Source: Chitinimonas sp. BJYL2 (GTDB lineage Bacteria; Pseudomonadota; Gammaproteobacteria; Burkholderiales; Chitinimonadaceae). Taken from it: a stretch of DNA of 64,000 nt. Made by a program: the position numbers and the translations under genes. The notes beneath the pieces are model-generated. The model saw only the letters and a program-made list of their open reading frames with translations. It was not told the origin of the DNA and made no database searches. The stretch is from assembly GCF_027257935.1 (NCBI RefSeq), contig NZ_JANZKW010000002.1:310001-374000 (forward strand), given 5' to 3'. Below, piece by piece: positions 9,443 through 16,331 of this stretch (positions are counted from its first letter, which is position 1; each line of letters opens with the position of its first letter).

Positions 9443-9874
9443 ATGCCTAACCATCAACACCTTCAAAAGCCTACCGGCGCATTTGTTGCCGCCTCCTGGG
9501 CCGCACTCGGCATCGGCGCAGGCGTCTATCTGATCGGCCTGTGGAACGCCAAGATGCAGCTCAACGAGCAGGGTTATTACTTTGTGCTGCTGATGTACGG
9601 GCTTTTCTCTGCGGTATCGCTTCAGAAATCGGTGCGCGACCGCATGGAGGACATCCCCGTATCCGCGCTGTATTTTGCCCTGTGCTGGGGCTCGCTCGGC
9701 ATGGCCATCCTGCTGATGGTGGTGGGCCTGTGGAACGCCGCACTGGCACCCTCCGAGAAAGGCTTCTACGCGATGGCATTCCTGCTGAGCCTGTTCGGCG
9801 CGGTCACCGTACAAAAGAACGTGCGTGATACCCAAGCCTTGATGCGCGCGAGCGCAGAAACCGCTTCAAACTGA
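9443..9874 (+). CDS. YiaA/YiaB-like inner membrane protein
   Basis: A 143-residue protein made of two tandem repeats of the YiaAB two-helix domain. Each repeat has two hydrophobic segments followed by a basic QK(S/N)VRD motif (about residues 60-66 and 126-131), giving four transmembrane helices. GGGAGAGG precedes the ATG. The function of the family is not established. It lies 109 bp upstream of the hydroxylase/desaturase/ketosynthase operon on the same strand with no terminator between, so co-transcription is possible but not shown. Confidence 0.85.
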   Translation: MPNHQHLQKPTGAFVAASWAALGIGAGVYLIGLWNAKMQLNEQGYYFVLLMYGLFSAVSLQKSVRDRMEDIPVSALYFALCWGSLGMAILLMVVGLWNAALAPSEKGFYAMAFLLSLFGAVTVQKNVRDTQALMRASAETASN

Positions 9875-9983: not shown

Positions 9984-10751
9984 ATGCGCGAAATCCTGCT
10001 GACAACCGACTGGCTCGACTTCGCCCTGTGGGCCTGTGCCTACTTCACCGCACTCTACGTGGGGCTGGGTGCGCTGAATCTGTGGCTGACGCGCTGGCTG
10101 CTGCCGCGTATAGGCTATGGCGGGCCGCTGGATGTCCGTGGCCTGCGGCCCGGTCAGCTACGCCGGGAGTGGCTGCTGTCCGGCGTGTCCATCCTGATCT
10201 TTGGCGTGGGCAGCCTGATCCCATGGTCGTTGCTGCAACTAGGTTGGGCCGAGCTGGCAGACACGCCATCCGGCGGGCGCGTGTTACTGGAAATACTGGC
10301 CCTGCTGGTCTGGAACGAGGTGCACTTCTACGCCAACCACTGGCTGCTGCACCGCCGCTGGCTACAAGGCTTCCATCTGCCACATCACCGCTCGGTCGTG
10401 GTGACGCCCTGGTCCACCTATGCTTTCCATCCACTCGAAGCAATGATGCTGGGCAATGTCATCATCGTACCCATGCTGGTCCACGACTTCAGCGCGGCCG
10501 CCCTGGTCGCGCTGCCGGTACTTAGCCTGGTCTTCAACAATATTGGCCATTCCAATTACGACTTCCTGCCAGACGCCAACCGTGATCGCTGGTGGCTCAA
10601 CGGTGCGCGGCGTCACCATCTGCACCATGTCTGCTACCAAGGCAATTACGGCTTCATGTTTCCGTTCATGGACCGTCTGTTCGGCACCGCTCTGCCGGTA
10701 GATGCCGCGCAGGCGAGACTGCAAGGCAAGACTGATCGGCATGCTGCGTAA
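9984..10751 (+). CDS. Sterol desaturase / fatty acid hydroxylase superfamily enzyme
   Basis: A 255-residue integral membrane protein with the histidine clusters of the fatty acid hydroxylase superfamily (PF04116): H119xxxH123, H131xxHH135, a lone His189, and HHLHH at 211-215. These bind a diiron centre and hydroxylate or desaturate alkyl chains at the membrane. At least three hydrophobic segments lie in the first 110 residues and two around 155-186. It is the first gene of a tightly packed four-gene set, and its last 11 bases overlap the start of the desaturase gene. The substrate is not known. Confidence 0.85.
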   Translation: MREILLTTDWLDFALWACAYFTALYVGLGALNLWLTRWLLPRIGYGGPLDVRGLRPGQLRREWLLSGVSILIFGVGSLIPWSLLQLGWAELADTPSGGRVLLEILALLVWNEVHFYANHWLLHRRWLQGFHLPHHRSVVVTPWSTYAFHPLEAMMLGNVIIVPMLVHDFSAAALVALPVLSLVFNNIGHSNYDFLPDANRDRWWLNGARRHHLHHVCYQGNYGFMFPFMDRLFGTALPVDAAQARLQGKTDRHAA

Positions 10752-11598
10752 TCCGCGCGACATCCAGGCGCTGGTCTATCTGCTGCTGCAGACGGGCCTT
10801 GTCATCCTGCTGTGGCAATACGGCTTTCAGCCGCTGGTCTATGCGGCTGTATTGCTTCTCTCGGTCGGCATCAGTGCGGCTCACCACAACCATGCGCATC
10901 TCAGGTTCTGGCATAACAAGTACCTGAACCGCCTGACCGACCTTTGGCTCACGCTGCTGCAAGGCCACCCGACCTTTGTCTTCCATGCCACCCATAACGC
11001 CAATCACCACCGCTACCACCATGGCCCGCGCGACGCAGCGCGTACCTACCGCTTTGGCGGTGATACCAACCATTTGTCAGGCTATCTGCTGCACCCGCTG
11101 CAGGCCGTGTGCGTGCTGTACCCACTGTTCATCGATTGGCTAAGGCGACTACGCCACCGGGCGCCCGGTGTGTATCGACATTGCCTGCTGCAGTATCTGA
11201 TCATCATCACACTGTGGGCCGTGCTGGCTGCCATCGACTGGCAGAAGTGGCTGCTATTCGTGCTGCTGCCGCAGCTGCATGGCCTGCACTGGCTGCTGGC
11301 CACCAACTACTTGCAGCACGCCCATGCAGATGGTCACTCGCAGTTAAATTTTTCCCGTAACTTCAATGGCTTGCTGAATTTGCTGATGTTCAACATTGGC
11401 TATCACACCGCGCACCACCTGCACCCCAAGGCACACTGGTCCACACTGCCTGCACTGCATGAGCAATATCGTCTGCATATCCATCCAAACCTGCTTGCAG
11501 GCGGCCTGCTGCCCTATATGGTGCGCACCTATCTGCTGGCCCCCTTCATACCGGCCTGTCGAAGCCGGAGCCTGATGAATCACACCGAGGAAAACTGA
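10741..11598 (+). CDS. Membrane fatty acid desaturase
   Basis: A 285-residue membrane-bound desaturase-type protein (PF00487). The three His boxes are visible: HHNHAH near residue 48, HATHNANHHRYHH near 81-93, and HTAHHLHP near 240, plus QHAHADGH near 210. Four or more hydrophobic helices flank them. The start is set at ATG 10741, inside the end of the upstream hydroxylase gene; an earlier in-frame ATG at 10702 would lengthen the overlap. The stop shares one base with the next start (TGATG). Likely an oxygen-dependent diiron enzyme on an acyl lipid or acyl-ACP. A decarboxylating (UndB-like) role cannot be excluded. Confidence 0.85.
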   Translation: MLRNPRDIQALVYLLLQTGLVILLWQYGFQPLVYAAVLLLSVGISAAHHNHAHLRFWHNKYLNRLTDLWLTLLQGHPTFVFHATHNANHHRYHHGPRDAARTYRFGGDTNHLSGYLLHPLQAVCVLYPLFIDWLRRLRHRAPGVYRHCLLQYLIIITLWAVLAAIDWQKWLLFVLLPQLHGLHWLLATNYLQHAHADGHSQLNFSRNFNGLLNLLMFNIGYHTAHHLHPKAHWSTLPALHEQYRLHIHPNLLAGGLLPYMVRTYLLAPFIPACRSRSLMNHTEEN

Positions 11599-13478
11599 TG
11601 CCAACCCGCTTTGAGCGCGTGTACATCGAAGCCACCGGCATGCACCTGCCCGGTCCAGCCATCGACAACGAGGCGATGGATGACTACATCGCCCCCATCA
11701 ACCGGCTGTCCGGGCGAATCAAGGCACGCATCCTGGCCGAGAACGGTATTCAGTCACGTCACTATGCGATTGATGCCGCGGGGAAGACCTTGATGTCGCA
11801 TGCCCAACTGGCCAGCGCGGCAATCCACGATTGCCTGAATCGGGCAAAATCAACGCTGCGTGATGTGTCGTTACTCAGCGTGGGCTCGTCGGGCGGCGAC
11901 GCGCTGATGCCCGGCTTTGCCAGCATGATCCAGGGTGAGCTGGGTGCACCGCCAATGAGCACGCTATCGAGCCAGGGCGTCTGCGGCGCCGGGGTTACTG
12001 CCGTGCTGCACGCCGCACAGGGCATCGAACTCGGTGCGCATCGTCAGGCGTTGGCTGTTGCGGCAGAAATGCCATCGCGTATGTTCAAGCGCAGCCGCTT
12101 TGGCCCGCGTGGCTACGACAGCGATTTCGATGCCCACTTCCTGCGGTGGATGCTGTCGGACGGCGCGGGCGCCATGCTGCTCAGCGACAGCCCGAGCCAG
12201 CGCTCGCCTGTGCGTATCAAGCTCAGCTGGATACACCAACAAAGCTTTGCCGGCGATTACCCGGTGTGCATGCAACTGGGGCTCAGCGAGGACCGCAGCA
12301 CCTCGTTTCTGGATTACCCGTCCGCAAGCGAAGCGGAAGCCGCCGGTGCGCTATCGCTACGGCAGGACATCCGCCTGTTACCGCATCTTTTTGATGTGTC
12401 GATCCACGAGTTCGTCAAGCTGGTCGATGCGGGCTGGGTGAAACCTGACGAGGTCACGCACTTCCTCTGCCATTACTCGTCCGAGAAGTTCGCGCCGGTG
12501 GTCGAGTCCTTGCTGGATAAAGCCGGGCTCAGCATTCCCAAGGCGCGCTGGTACAGCAATCTAAGCACGCGCGGCAATACCGGTGCTGCCTCGATCTTCA
12601 TCATGCTGGCGGAATTTCTGGCGAGCCGCAGCCTGCACGCCGGCGAGAAGATCCTCTGCTTCATCCCCGAATCCGGGCGCATCAGCGCCGCCTTCATGCT
12701 GCTGGAAGTCGAAGCCACGGATGCGCCACAGGTAACAGAAAACAAGGAAATGGCGGCCTCGCACACTTCCTCGCCAACCCTGCCCAGCGCACCGCATGAT
12801 CCCGGCCAAGCCCCCCTCGCCCTGCAACCCTTGCTGACCAAGCTGGCCAGCGTGTGGCAGGACTACCGCTCCCAGGTCTGGCGCAGCCCGGTCATCCACA
12901 AGCTGGTGGCAGGTCGATTTGGCGTAGCCGATTACCGCCAGTGGACATCGCATTGGGTGCAGCAGGTGCGCGAAGGCAGCAAGTGGATGCGCGAGGCCGT
13001 GGCCTCGCTGAGTGGCCCGTTTGCCGAGCTGGGCGTGCTGATCGAAACCCACGCGGGCGATGAGCAGAACGATTTCATGATCCTGTATCAGGACTATCAG
13101 GCGGCGGGCGGCACGCAGCCGCTCGACGCGCTCAAGCGCAATCCCGGTGGTGAGGCGCTCAACAGCTATCTGCATGCGCTGGCCGCCACACCCAATCCAT
13201 TGGGCCTGCTGGGTGCGATCTACATCATCGAAGGCACAGGCCAGCGTATCGTGCCCGCCCTACTGCCTCTGCTGCGCCAGCAAGTTGATCTGCCGGCATC
13301 GGCCTTCCGCTTTCTTGCTTACCACGGCGCCAACGACGAGCACCACCTTGCGCGCTGGCTCTCTGCCGTGGAAATCACGCTGGCGCTAGACCCGCGCGCG
13401 GCCAATGCCATACTCGCCACCGCCACGCGCACCGCGCAGCTGTACCTGATGCAGTTCGACCATATTCTGGAGCACTGA
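11598..13478 (+). CDS. Ketosynthase III fused to a heme-oxygenase-like diiron domain
   Basis: A 626-residue two-domain protein. Residues 1-372 are a ketoacyl synthase III fold with an intact triad: Cys129 (SSQGVCGAG), His292 (LCHYSS) and Asn327 (STRGNTG). The opening (YIEATGMHLPG, then NGIQSRHYAID) recalls StlD/DarB-type ketosynthases of stilbene and dialkylresorcinol pathways; this is from memory and moderate. A Pro/Ser-rich linker (about 373-408) leads to residues 409-626, resembling TenA/heme-oxygenase-like iron redox enzymes. Candidate metal ligands are Glu483, His485 and Glu489, Glu545, His576, Asp580 and His582 or His583. GAGGAAAA precedes the ATG, which overlaps the desaturase stop by one base. 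It probably condenses an acyl starter; the role of the C-terminal domain is inference. Confidence 0.75.
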   Translation: MPTRFERVYIEATGMHLPGPAIDNEAMDDYIAPINRLSGRIKARILAENGIQSRHYAIDAAGKTLMSHAQLASAAIHDCLNRAKSTLRDVSLLSVGSSGGDALMPGFASMIQGELGAPPMSTLSSQGVCGAGVTAVLHAAQGIELGAHRQALAVAAEMPSRMFKRSRFGPRGYDSDFDAHFLRWMLSDGAGAMLLSDSPSQRSPVRIKLSWIHQQSFAGDYPVCMQLGLSEDRSTSFLDYPSASEAEAAGALSLRQDIRLLPHLFDVSIHEFVKLVDAGWVKPDEVTHFLCHYSSEKFAPVVESLLDKAGLSIPKARWYSNLSTRGNTGAASIFIMLAEFLASRSLHAGEKILCFIPESGRISAAFMLLEVEATDAPQVTENKEMAASHTSSPTLPSAPHDPGQAPLALQPLLTKLASVWQDYRSQVWRSPVIHKLVAGRFGVADYRQWTSHWVQQVREGSKWMREAVASLSGPFAELGVLIETHAGDEQNDFMILYQDYQAAGGTQPLDALKRNPGGEALNSYLHALAATPNPLGLLGAIYIIEGTGQRIVPALLPLLRQQVDLPASAFRFLAYHGANDEHHLARWLSAVEITLALDPRAANAILATATRTAQLYLMQFDHILEH

Positions 13479-13479
13479 G

Positions 13480-14376
13480 ATGAAGCGGCTGCCCGACTTT
13501 CTGGCGCAACAACACGACGCCCGCGATCCCAACCCTTGGCTGGCCCTGTATCTGGACCAGAGCACGCCGCTGCCCGACCCGGTCAAACAGGCCTGGCTGA
13601 CCGATTCCAGCTCGATGTCGCGGCAGTTCCTGCTGCCCTTTGTCCGCCCGCTGGCACGCACGCTGATCGTGCTGATCCAGATTGCCAAGGTGGTGGTACC
13701 ACGACGCTGGTCGGCGTCGCGCACCTTGCACTGGCTGCTGGCCGAAGGACTCAAACGCCTGGTCTCACCCGAGGCCAACTGGCTGGTGATGCGGCACTTT
13801 CATCTGGGCAGCCAGATTCTGGCGTTTGTAGCCAAGAACGCACCCTCGCAAGTCACCACATCGCCTCTCACGCCCATGGTCCTTGATGATCTCAAGGATG
13901 ACCTGTTCCTCAAGCATGACCTGAACCTGTTCAACTTCGTGATCCGCCTGAATCAGGCATTGCGCGAATCAGACCAGACGCTGGTCCCCGTGCGCGAGCC
14001 GGACTTCAGCATGATCGAAGAGCCGCCGCTGGCACTGGACGATCTGCCGCAGGGCCTGCTCAACAAGATCGACCTGCAAACCGCCATTGAATGCTTCACG
14101 CCGATCTATCAGTTATTCCTGACCGATAACGATTTCTGGCGCGCGGCCAATTCGCTGCAACTGGATGAAACCATCGGGATCTACTGCGCCACCATCCTAG
14201 ATGCGCCGCAACACCTGATCCTGCTCAACAACAAGCATCCACTCGTGCCGCTCAGCACACTCAGAGCGGGCTACCGCCTTGTGGTGCATGGTCTTTCCAC
14301 CGAAATGCTGCATGCCTTGCTGGTACAGATGAAAGCCCAGCAAGCGGCACGCCGGTCGCGGGATGCGGCAGCCTGA
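13480..14376 (+). CDS. Conserved-looking protein of unknown function, last gene of the ketosynthase operon
   Basis: A 298-residue protein that I do not recognise. It begins one base after the ketosynthase stop, so it is almost certainly co-translated with it. It has no signal peptide. A hydrophobic stretch at about residues 50-70 (LLPFVRPLARTLIVLIQIAK) could dip into the membrane. The rest is helical, with an acidic, leucine-rich middle (DDLKDDLFLKHDLNLFNFVIRLN) and a basic Ala/Arg-rich tail. It has no Cys/His metal cluster or nucleotide-binding loop. Given the context it may bind or deliver the lipid product or hold the membrane enzymes together, but this is only a guess. Confidence 0.7.
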   Translation: MKRLPDFLAQQHDARDPNPWLALYLDQSTPLPDPVKQAWLTDSSSMSRQFLLPFVRPLARTLIVLIQIAKVVVPRRWSASRTLHWLLAEGLKRLVSPEANWLVMRHFHLGSQILAFVAKNAPSQVTTSPLTPMVLDDLKDDLFLKHDLNLFNFVIRLNQALRESDQTLVPVREPDFSMIEEPPLALDDLPQGLLNKIDLQTAIECFTPIYQLFLTDNDFWRAANSLQLDETIGIYCATILDAPQHLILLNNKHPLVPLSTLRAGYRLVVHGLSTEMLHALLVQMKAQQAARRSRDAAA

Positions 14377-14396: not shown

Positions 14397-14434
14397 AAAA
14401 CAAAACGGGACGCCTGAGCGTCCCGTTTTGTTTT
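14397..14434. terminator. Perfect bidirectional terminator between ketosynthase operon and aspS
   Basis: A perfect 17-bp stem AAAACAAAACGGGACGC with its complement, loop CTGA (14414-14417), flanked by A and T tracts that would act as the U-run in both directions. It lies between the convergent ends of the unknown gene (14376) and aspS (14454) and should terminate both. Confidence 0.95.
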
Positions 14435-14453: not shown

Positions 14454-16244
14454 TCAAGCCACTTGCGGCGGGTTGCGCAGCTTGATGTGCAGATCGCGCA
14501 GCTGACGCTCGTCCACTGCGTTCGGGGCGTTGGTCAGCAGGCACTGGGCACGCTGGGTCTTGGGGAAGGCGATCACGTCACGGATCGACTCGGCACCGGT
14601 CATCAGCGTGACCAGACGGTCCAGACCGAAGGCCAGACCACCGTGCGGGGGTGCGCCGTAAGCCAGGTTATCGAGCAGGAAGCCGAACTTGTTCTGCGCT
14701 TCTTCCGGGCCGATGTTCAGGGCTTCGAACACCGTGCTCTGCATGTCGGCGCGGTGGATACGGATCGAGCCGCCACCCAATTCCCAACCGTTCAGCACCA
14801 TGTCGTAGGCGCGTGCCTTGCACTTGCCCGGATCGGTCTTGAGCAGGTCGATATGCTCGACCTTGGGGCTGGTGAACGGGTGGTGACAAGCCGTGTAGCG
14901 CTTGTCTTCCTCGTCGTATTCGAACATGGGGAAGTCCACCACCCACAGCGGCTTCCACTCGCGGGTGAAGTAACCACCGGCTTCGCCCTTTTCGTGGCCG
15001 ATCTTGATGCGCAGCGCACCGATGGCCTCATTGACCACCTTGGCCTTGTCGGCACCGAAGAAGATGATGTCGCCGTTCTGCGCGCCAGTGCGCTCCAGCG
15101 TGGCCTTGAGTGCGGCTTCGGACAGGTTCTTGACGATGGGCGACTGTAGGCCGGTTTCGTTCGGCTGGGTCACATCGTTGACCTTGATATAGGCCAGACC
15201 CTTGGCACCATAAATGCCCACGAACTGGGTCCAGGCATCGATCTCGGAACGGGTGAATGCAGCGCCACCGGGCACGCGCAAACCGACCACGCGGCCGCCT
15301 TCCATGTTGGCCGCACCGGCAAACACCTTGAAAGCCACATCCTTCATCACATCCGTCAGTTCGGTGAACTTCAGGGTCACGCGCATATCGGGCTTGTCGG
15401 AGCCGTAGTAGAACATGGCGTCGTCGTAAGCCATGCGCGGGAACTTGCCCAGGTCCACACCGATGGCTTCCTTGAACACATGGACGGCCATTTCTTCGGT
15501 GATATCCATGATCTCGTCTTCCGTGAGGAAGGAGGTCTCGATATCGATCTGGGTAAATTCGGGCTGGCGATCAGCACGCAGGTCTTCGTCGCGGAAGCAT
15601 TTAGTGATCTGGTAGTAGCGGTCGAAGCCGGCCACCATCAGGAGTTGCTTGAACAGCTGCGGTGATTGCGGCAGCGCAAAGAACTGGCCGTCGTGCACGC
15701 GGCTCGGTACCAGGTAATCGCGCGCGCCTTCGGGCGTCGAGCGCGTCAGCATCGGCGTTTCCACGTCGATGAAGCCACGGCTGTCGAGGAAATTACGCAC
15801 CAGCAGCGCCACCTTGTAGCGCAGACGCAGGTTCTTCTGCATGGCCGGGCGGCGCAGGTCCATCACGCGGTGTTGCAGGCGGGTGATTTCGCTGAGGTTT
15901 TCATCGTCAATCATGAACGGCGGGGTCACAGCCGTGTTCAGGATCTCGATTTCCTTGGCGAGGATTTCGATTTCGCCCGAAATCAGGTTGGCGTTGGTCG
16001 TACCCTCGGGGCGCGCACGCACGATGCCGGTGATCTGCAGCACGAACTCGCTGCGCACGGTGTCGGCCAGCTTGAAGGCTTCGGGGGTATCGGGGTCGAT
16101 CACCACCTGCACCAGACCTTCGCGGTCGCGCAGGTCGATGAAGATCACACCACCATGGTCACGGCGACGGTGCGCCCAGCCTTTGATGGTGACGGTTTGG
16201 GAGAGGAATCGCTTGTCGATCAAGCCACAATAATCTGTACGCAT
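14454..16244 (-). CDS. aspS: Aspartyl-tRNA synthetase
   Basis: A 596-residue bacterial-type class IIb synthetase. An N-terminal OB-fold anticodon-binding domain (about 1-105) is followed by the catalytic core with motif 2 ([16 protein letters not shown], around residue 220) and motif 3 (GLAFGLDRL, near 535). Between them lies the bacterial GAD insertion domain. It charges tRNA-Asp. The start at [10 protein letters not shown] (16244) is the family start; ten further codons are open upstream. It ends at a shared bidirectional terminator. Upstream on the same strand are DUF502 and FmdB genes, an arrangement frequent in betaproteobacteria, and the three probably form one operon. Confidence 0.97.
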
Positions 16245-16331
16245 GGTTGTTTCACCAGTAGGTCTAAGCCACACAGGGCCGGTATATCGGGAATGGGGAT
16301 ATAGGTTTTACGGGCTAAGCGAGGTGGTCGC

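Follow-up and report, generated by a model that had tools for sequence, protein, structure and literature searches.

An apparently undescribed gene module built from a StlD/DarB-like ketosynthase, a heme-oxygenase-like oxidase domain, and a DUF6999 protein

Introduction

Two groups of described proteins come closest to the gene block presented here. The first consists of the ketosynthases StlD and DarB, from cyclohexanedione and dialkylresorcinol pathways, the latter known from DarABC-type clusters with the aromatase DarA and the carrier protein DarC. The second consists of the heme-oxygenase-like dimetal oxidases, or HDOs (CADD, HrmI, UndA), about a dozen of which were functionally validated according to a 2026 review, which also describes their metal site of three His and three carboxylates (PMC13108848).

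In the window, that is, the whole 64,000-nt stretch of Chitinimonas sp. BJYL2 DNA that we analyzed, an operon of four genes encodes a fusion protein with features of both groups. Its ketosynthase is like StlD/DarB in its end-to-end alignment, its catalytic triad, and its best family model, and its oxidase domain is predicted by structural modeling to have the same fold as HDOs. However, the ketosynthase scores under both curated family cut-offs and is fused to (or, in relatives, encoded beside) an HDO-like domain and a DUF6999 protein, while the four genes of the operon are assigned to families other than those of DarA and DarC. On the basis of these scores and family assignments, a DarABC-type dialkylresorcinol cluster was rejected as an identification and kept as a mechanistic model. 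In contrast to described HDOs, the oxidase is fused to a ketosynthase, and the review cited above mentions neither a ketosynthase nor a fusion anywhere (PMC13108848). The open literature searched yielded no description of the block and no characterized cluster matching it; subscription papers could hold a description. The module is conserved and apparently undescribed; its ketosynthase and its oxidase are each of a known kind, and a DUF6999 protein is the third core member. An HDO tethered to a ketosynthase would widen the range of reactions in which these oxidases take part, and DUF6999 would gain a first function through the module.

Organization of the four-gene block

The features of the locus are as follows.

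9984-10751, forward strand: gene A, membrane protein of the FA_hydroxylase superfamily (PF04116), 255 aa, Pfam 83.7 bits
10741-11598, forward strand: gene B, membrane desaturase (FA_desaturase, PF00487) of 285 aa when begun at the ATG at 10741, Pfam 90.1 bits
11598-13478, forward strand: gene C, ketosynthase III and heme-oxygenase-like oxidase domain in one fusion protein, assigned by Pfam and NCBIfam
13480-14376, forward strand: gene D, DUF6999 protein (PF22523), 298 aa, Pfam 428.3 bits
14397-14434, no strand: inverted repeat containing runs of A and of T, a probable bidirectional terminator, between D and a convergent ORF

An earlier sequence-only reading had proposed four codirectional genes ending at a perfect bidirectional terminator, and the coordinates of the ORFs bear out these genes and the close spacing given for them. 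A and B overlap by 11 bp when B is taken to start at the ATG at 10741 (its longest ORF begins at 10702), B and C overlap by 1 bp, and C and D are separated by 1 bp. The inverted repeat 3' of D is perfect, with 17-nt arms (14397-14413 and 14418-14434) and a 4-nt loop; it was not among the results of a simple consensus terminator scan, and a promoter scan returned nothing exceeding chance. Beyond the hairpin lies the convergent ORF (14454-16274), whose product we take to resemble aspartyl-tRNA synthetase. Pfam and NCBIfam also agree with the same reading on the nature of the first three products, a hydroxylase, a desaturase, and a ketosynthase III fused to a heme-oxygenase-like domain. All four genes, when compared with three relatives, show dN of 0.13-0.31 and dS of 0.88-1.42. 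A to D are four genuine genes forming a genuine block.

Two other identities were considered and dropped. The four proteins have no PADLOC match at E 0.001, which speaks against a defense system, and D has no match in the plasmid collection searched, which speaks against a plasmid-borne element. Directly upstream of A is a gene for a YiaA-like inner membrane protein (9443-9874, forward strand; NF008482, 202.7 bits).

The ketosynthase moiety of C

Residues ~1-371 of C form a StlD/DarB-like ketosynthase III, with a 33.1-bit match to ACP_syn_III_C (PF08541). The best NCBIfam model is StlD/DarB, at 329.8 bits against a curated cut-off of 450, and the DarB model gives 263.2 bits against a curated cut-off of 550, compared with only 76.2 and 54.6 bits for FabH-type models. 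The ketosynthase domains of seven diverse loci, four of them unfused, behave likewise, scoring 313-414 bits with StlD/DarB and at most 100 with FabH-type models; none of these seven reaches the StlD/DarB (450) or the DarB (550) cut-off. The best solved relative is StlD, which aligns end to end (phmmer E 7e-60), and no OleA-named chain occurs among the 29 solved-structure matches of C. The Cys-His-Asn condensing triad of ketosynthase III enzymes is present as C129/H292/N327, which does not vary among 19 sequences and is retained in 98.5% or more of 77. Judging from this likeness, the most probable task of the ketosynthase is to join two acyl chains. Since no second ketosynthase in the Chitinimonas genome exceeds 29.5 bits against the StlD/DarB model, condensation of the StlD/DarB type would depend on C in this organism.

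The oxidase moiety of C

The second moiety (residues ~405-625) is a heme-oxygenase-like domain, matching Haem_oxygenas_2 (PF14518) at 42.9 bits. Its structural model (pLDDT 91.8) adopts a heme-oxygenase fold, and the best solved counterparts are 3dde, a protein of unknown function (Z 25.1, RMSD 2.1, 216 residues aligned), and CADD (Z 23.3, 2.1, 208), followed by HrmI (Z 21.0, 3.2, 216) and UndA (Z 19.5, 3.0, 222). Proteins other than dimetal oxidases, namely heme oxygenases and TenA/PqqC proteins, also match the same model, at Z 19.3-21.3, so that the fold alone is no proof of metal chemistry. Eight residues (E459, H485, E489, D492, E545, H576, D580, and H583) show no variation among 19 sequences and are retained in 98.5% or more of 77, and the corresponding positions are also invariant in an alignment of oxidase domains (A5) that includes the unfused proteins of loci L017, L018, and L110. 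Six of them, H485, D492, E545, H576, D580, and H583, are candidate metal ligands: they fit the three-His/three-carboxylate pattern of HDOs and occur at plausible positions as read from the sequence. On one helix the likely ligands of C are arranged as His-x6-Asp, whereas CADD has Glu-x6-His on the corresponding helix. Model and residues together make it likely that the oxidase domain uses metal. Elsewhere in the same genome, a separate second protein (G000:C1:155936-156499) weakly matches the oxidase alignment, at 54.9 bits.

The presence of UndA among the structural relatives raises the possibility of a hydrocarbon pathway, in which the ketosynthase would join two chains head to head and an UndA-like oxidative decarboxylation of the resulting keto or hydroxy acid would yield an alkene or ketone, to be decorated by A and B. 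UndA acts on fatty acids, according to the HDO review (PMC13108848), and the only solved sequence relative of B is an alkane 1-monooxygenase (E 0.0003). However, 3dde and CADD are closer structural counterparts of the oxidase domain than UndA is, and the ketosynthase is StlD/DarB-like. We consider this pathway unlikely.

A quite different role, protection against drying or oxidative stress by the oxidase domain, has a precedent in DtpC, an HDO-like protein of Acinetobacter that is reported to protect dried cells, to require its predicted metal ligands, and to be paired with a catalase gene (PMC13232832). In the present module, the partner is a ketosynthase instead, either in the same protein or encoded next to the oxidase in each of the five strong matches to the oxidase alignment, and a protective factor seems highly improbable.

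The DUF6999 protein

The sequence-only reading could not place the fourth protein. It does belong to a named family, being a full-length member of DUF6999 (428.3 bits against a Pfam gathering score of 27) and a part of the conserved core described below; what stands is that the function of this family is undescribed. The name DUF6999 did not occur in the open literature searched, and subscription papers might differ in this respect. Modeling of D predicts, with moderate confidence, an all-helical protein (pLDDT 77.1, pTM 0.79). This model found no Foldseek match at E 0.001 (the best had E 1.3) and no VIA-align match above Z 3.8, and a profile run against PDB sequences had a single chance-level match (E 1). 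Since the model has a pLDDT of 77.1 and was built from 24 rather similar sequences, the missing PDB match does not make D a new fold. Six residues, H106, H146, D147, D229, H270, and E275, are invariant in six sequences that include distant members of the family, and could be metal ligands.

Distribution and a three-gene core

DUF6999 was found in seven of 369 genomes of the class and in nine of 398 genomes of the phylum; two genomes (G000 and G224) belong to both samples, which leaves 14 distinct genomes. In both searches, a match was also found in one of 14 named control genomes, that of Caulobacter vibrioides. The complete A-B-C-D block is present in six of the 14 D-bearing genomes (G000, G224, G521, G547, G699, and G728). 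In one genome (G665), C and D come after a B whose reading frame is broken, and A has no match; in another (G019), the fused C is accompanied by D, with A and B both missing. In four (G302, G077, G717, and G573), the ketosynthase, the oxidase, and DUF6999 are three separate genes with no A or B adjoining. Ketosynthase, oxidase, and DUF6999 thus occur without A and B in five of the 14 sampled genomes. In G052, just fragments of the ketosynthase and of D are present. D stands alone in just one of the 14, the complete genome G074, which has no oxidase match at E 1e-8 and a weak ketosynthase match of 23.6 bits; the neighbor of D there is presumably a transposase. Homologs are therefore not, for the most part, scattered singly through genomes, the pattern that the sequence-only reading had named as speaking against a system.

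The oxidase-domain alignment A5, searched against the 369 genomes of the class, gave 40 matches in 37 genomes at E 1e-8. The top five score 313-354 bits and each adjoins a ketosynthase and D, and the next best scores 93.6 bits; 25 of the 35 weaker matches were fetched, and none has a ketosynthase or D within ~1.5 kb (less at contig ends). Many betaproteobacteria and some gammaproteobacteria carry the module in their genomes; Variovorax, Azoarcus, Collimonas, and Cellvibrio are examples.

From this distribution, we take the ketosynthase, the oxidase, and DUF6999 as the core and A and B as add-ons. This revises the earlier proposal of a four-gene pathway that modifies and condenses an acyl chain: the idea of such an undescribed module stands, but A and B are accessory, occurring with the core in six of the 14 genomes.

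The membrane enzymes A and B

Both membrane enzymes score well above the Pfam cut-offs of their families (31 for A and 29.7 for B). A has 12 histidines, and B has 18, that are conserved in 97% or more of 77 sequences. The Chitinimonas genome as a whole holds four FA_hydroxylase matches and four desaturase matches.

The reading of A and B as add-ons follows from a search at E 1e-5 in eight genomes whose block is incomplete or broken, where each of the two was matched in only two genomes. For A, these were G573 (62.3 bits, the best) and G717 (26.7 bits); for B, they were G749 (the block's own B) and G665 (the broken copy, L108:11478-12328). G665 is without a match to A at the same threshold, and B has no match in the five sampled genomes that have only ketosynthase, oxidase, and DUF6999.

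Membrane enzymes with strongly conserved histidines would also suit a remodeling of membrane lipids, in which the ketosynthase would serve as an acyl transferase and existing chains would be modified, with no new condensed molecule. In two loci, moreover, a cardiolipin-synthase-like gene, as read from the translations, directly precedes A (L076) or B (L043). Such remodeling is nevertheless quite unlikely in our view, as the triad of the ketosynthase is intact, and in five of the 14 genomes A and B do not adjoin the core, B being without a match there and A matching weakly in two.

Two genomes of the same class (loci L017 and L110), in which A and B do not adjoin the core, encode a membrane-type protein of 188 aa with many shared histidines directly upstream of the unfused core (L017:2623-3189, forward strand; L110:11440-12006, reverse strand). 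Pfam gave no match for this protein at E 0.001, and at E 10 it gave just chance-level matches for one of the two. Perhaps the protein is another kind of membrane metal enzyme that takes the place of A and B.

A proposed pathway

The genes, their order, their coinheritance, the fusion, and the conservation of the catalytic residues were established directly. On balance, we lean narrowly towards the block being a self-contained lipid pathway that combines condensation by the ketosynthase, oxidation by the tethered domain, a core contribution of DUF6999, and decoration by A and B. In such a pathway, the ketosynthase of C would take two acyl intermediates of ordinary fatty-acid synthesis and make a C-C bond between them as StlD/DarB do, a step that we infer from homology and from the intact Cys-His-Asn triad. 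The product would pass to the tethered heme-oxygenase-like domain, whose putative two-metal site would use O2 to oxidize it. DUF6999, to which a core role is ascribed because of its conservation, would be the third component, perhaps a helical metal enzyme or a partner protein. In many betaproteobacteria and in Cellvibrio, A and B, as membrane enzymes of di-iron type, would introduce hydroxyls or double bonds into the alkyl chains. The product would most likely be a condensed, O2-oxidized acyl lipid, perhaps a relative of the cyclohexanediones or resorcinols with the oxidase standing in for DarA.

The oxidase step could be ring oxidation replacing DarA, decarboxylation as by UndA, or another reaction. 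We favor the first, in which the oxidase would turn a dialkylcyclohexanedione into a ring at the resorcinol or quinone level; that this specific ring product is formed is a tentative idea and rather doubtful. Equally doubtful is the broader proposal of a new class of ring-forming lipid pathway, in which a ketosynthase-dimetal-oxidase protein would condense two acyl chains and oxidize the ring, with DUF6999 as a new helical metalloenzyme for the last core step. Among the findings that count against the lipid-pathway reading, the ketosynthase scores fall short of both curated cut-offs, no acyl carrier protein is encoded among the genes of the operon, D occurs without ketosynthase and oxidase in G074, and A is absent from the genome of L043.

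Conservation and inheritance of the block

A scan of contigs from 84,980 species revealed 515 places encoding a DUF6999 relative, and the best 80 of these 515 were analyzed. The gene order proposed for checking in the sequence-only reading is conserved: A, B, ketosynthase, heme-oxygenase-like domain, and D (A-B-K-H-D) follow one another on one strand, separated by no more than 300 bp from match to match, in 76 of the 80, a proportion that overstates the frequency of the four-gene form because these loci are the closest relatives of D and not a random sample. The four exceptions are a locus that begins at a contig end (L032), a block with no A beside it, in a genome where A is unmatched at E 1e-5 (L043), and two Variovorax loci in which A directly precedes D (L076, 7237-8870; L078, 3794-5415). 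In the genomes of the last two, B-C lies on another contig (L162 and L163), and all four genes have thus been retained after the split.

Pairwise distances of the four proteins in 77 sequences (the window and the 76 loci) correlate with r of 0.92-0.96, compared with at most 0.32 after shuffling of the labels (200 shuffles per pair); shared species history is part of this correlation. When C and D from 27 members are placed in midpoint-rooted trees (topology only), Rhodoferax groups with Chitinimonas and Andreprevotia, and the gammaproteobacterium Cellvibrio falls among betaproteobacteria. This placement suggests that the block has been horizontally transferred.

For 24 of the 80 loci, picked for spread over 18 genera or groups, the ORFs on either side of the block were clustered at E 1e-12, and no family is common to more than four of the 18 groups, which indicates that the block moves without fixed neighbors. 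Two flanking families occur in four groups and, we presume, resemble ABC ATPases and aldehyde-dehydrogenase-like proteins; a few others occur in two groups, and several neighbors are common to Cellvibrio and one gammaproteobacterial MAG.
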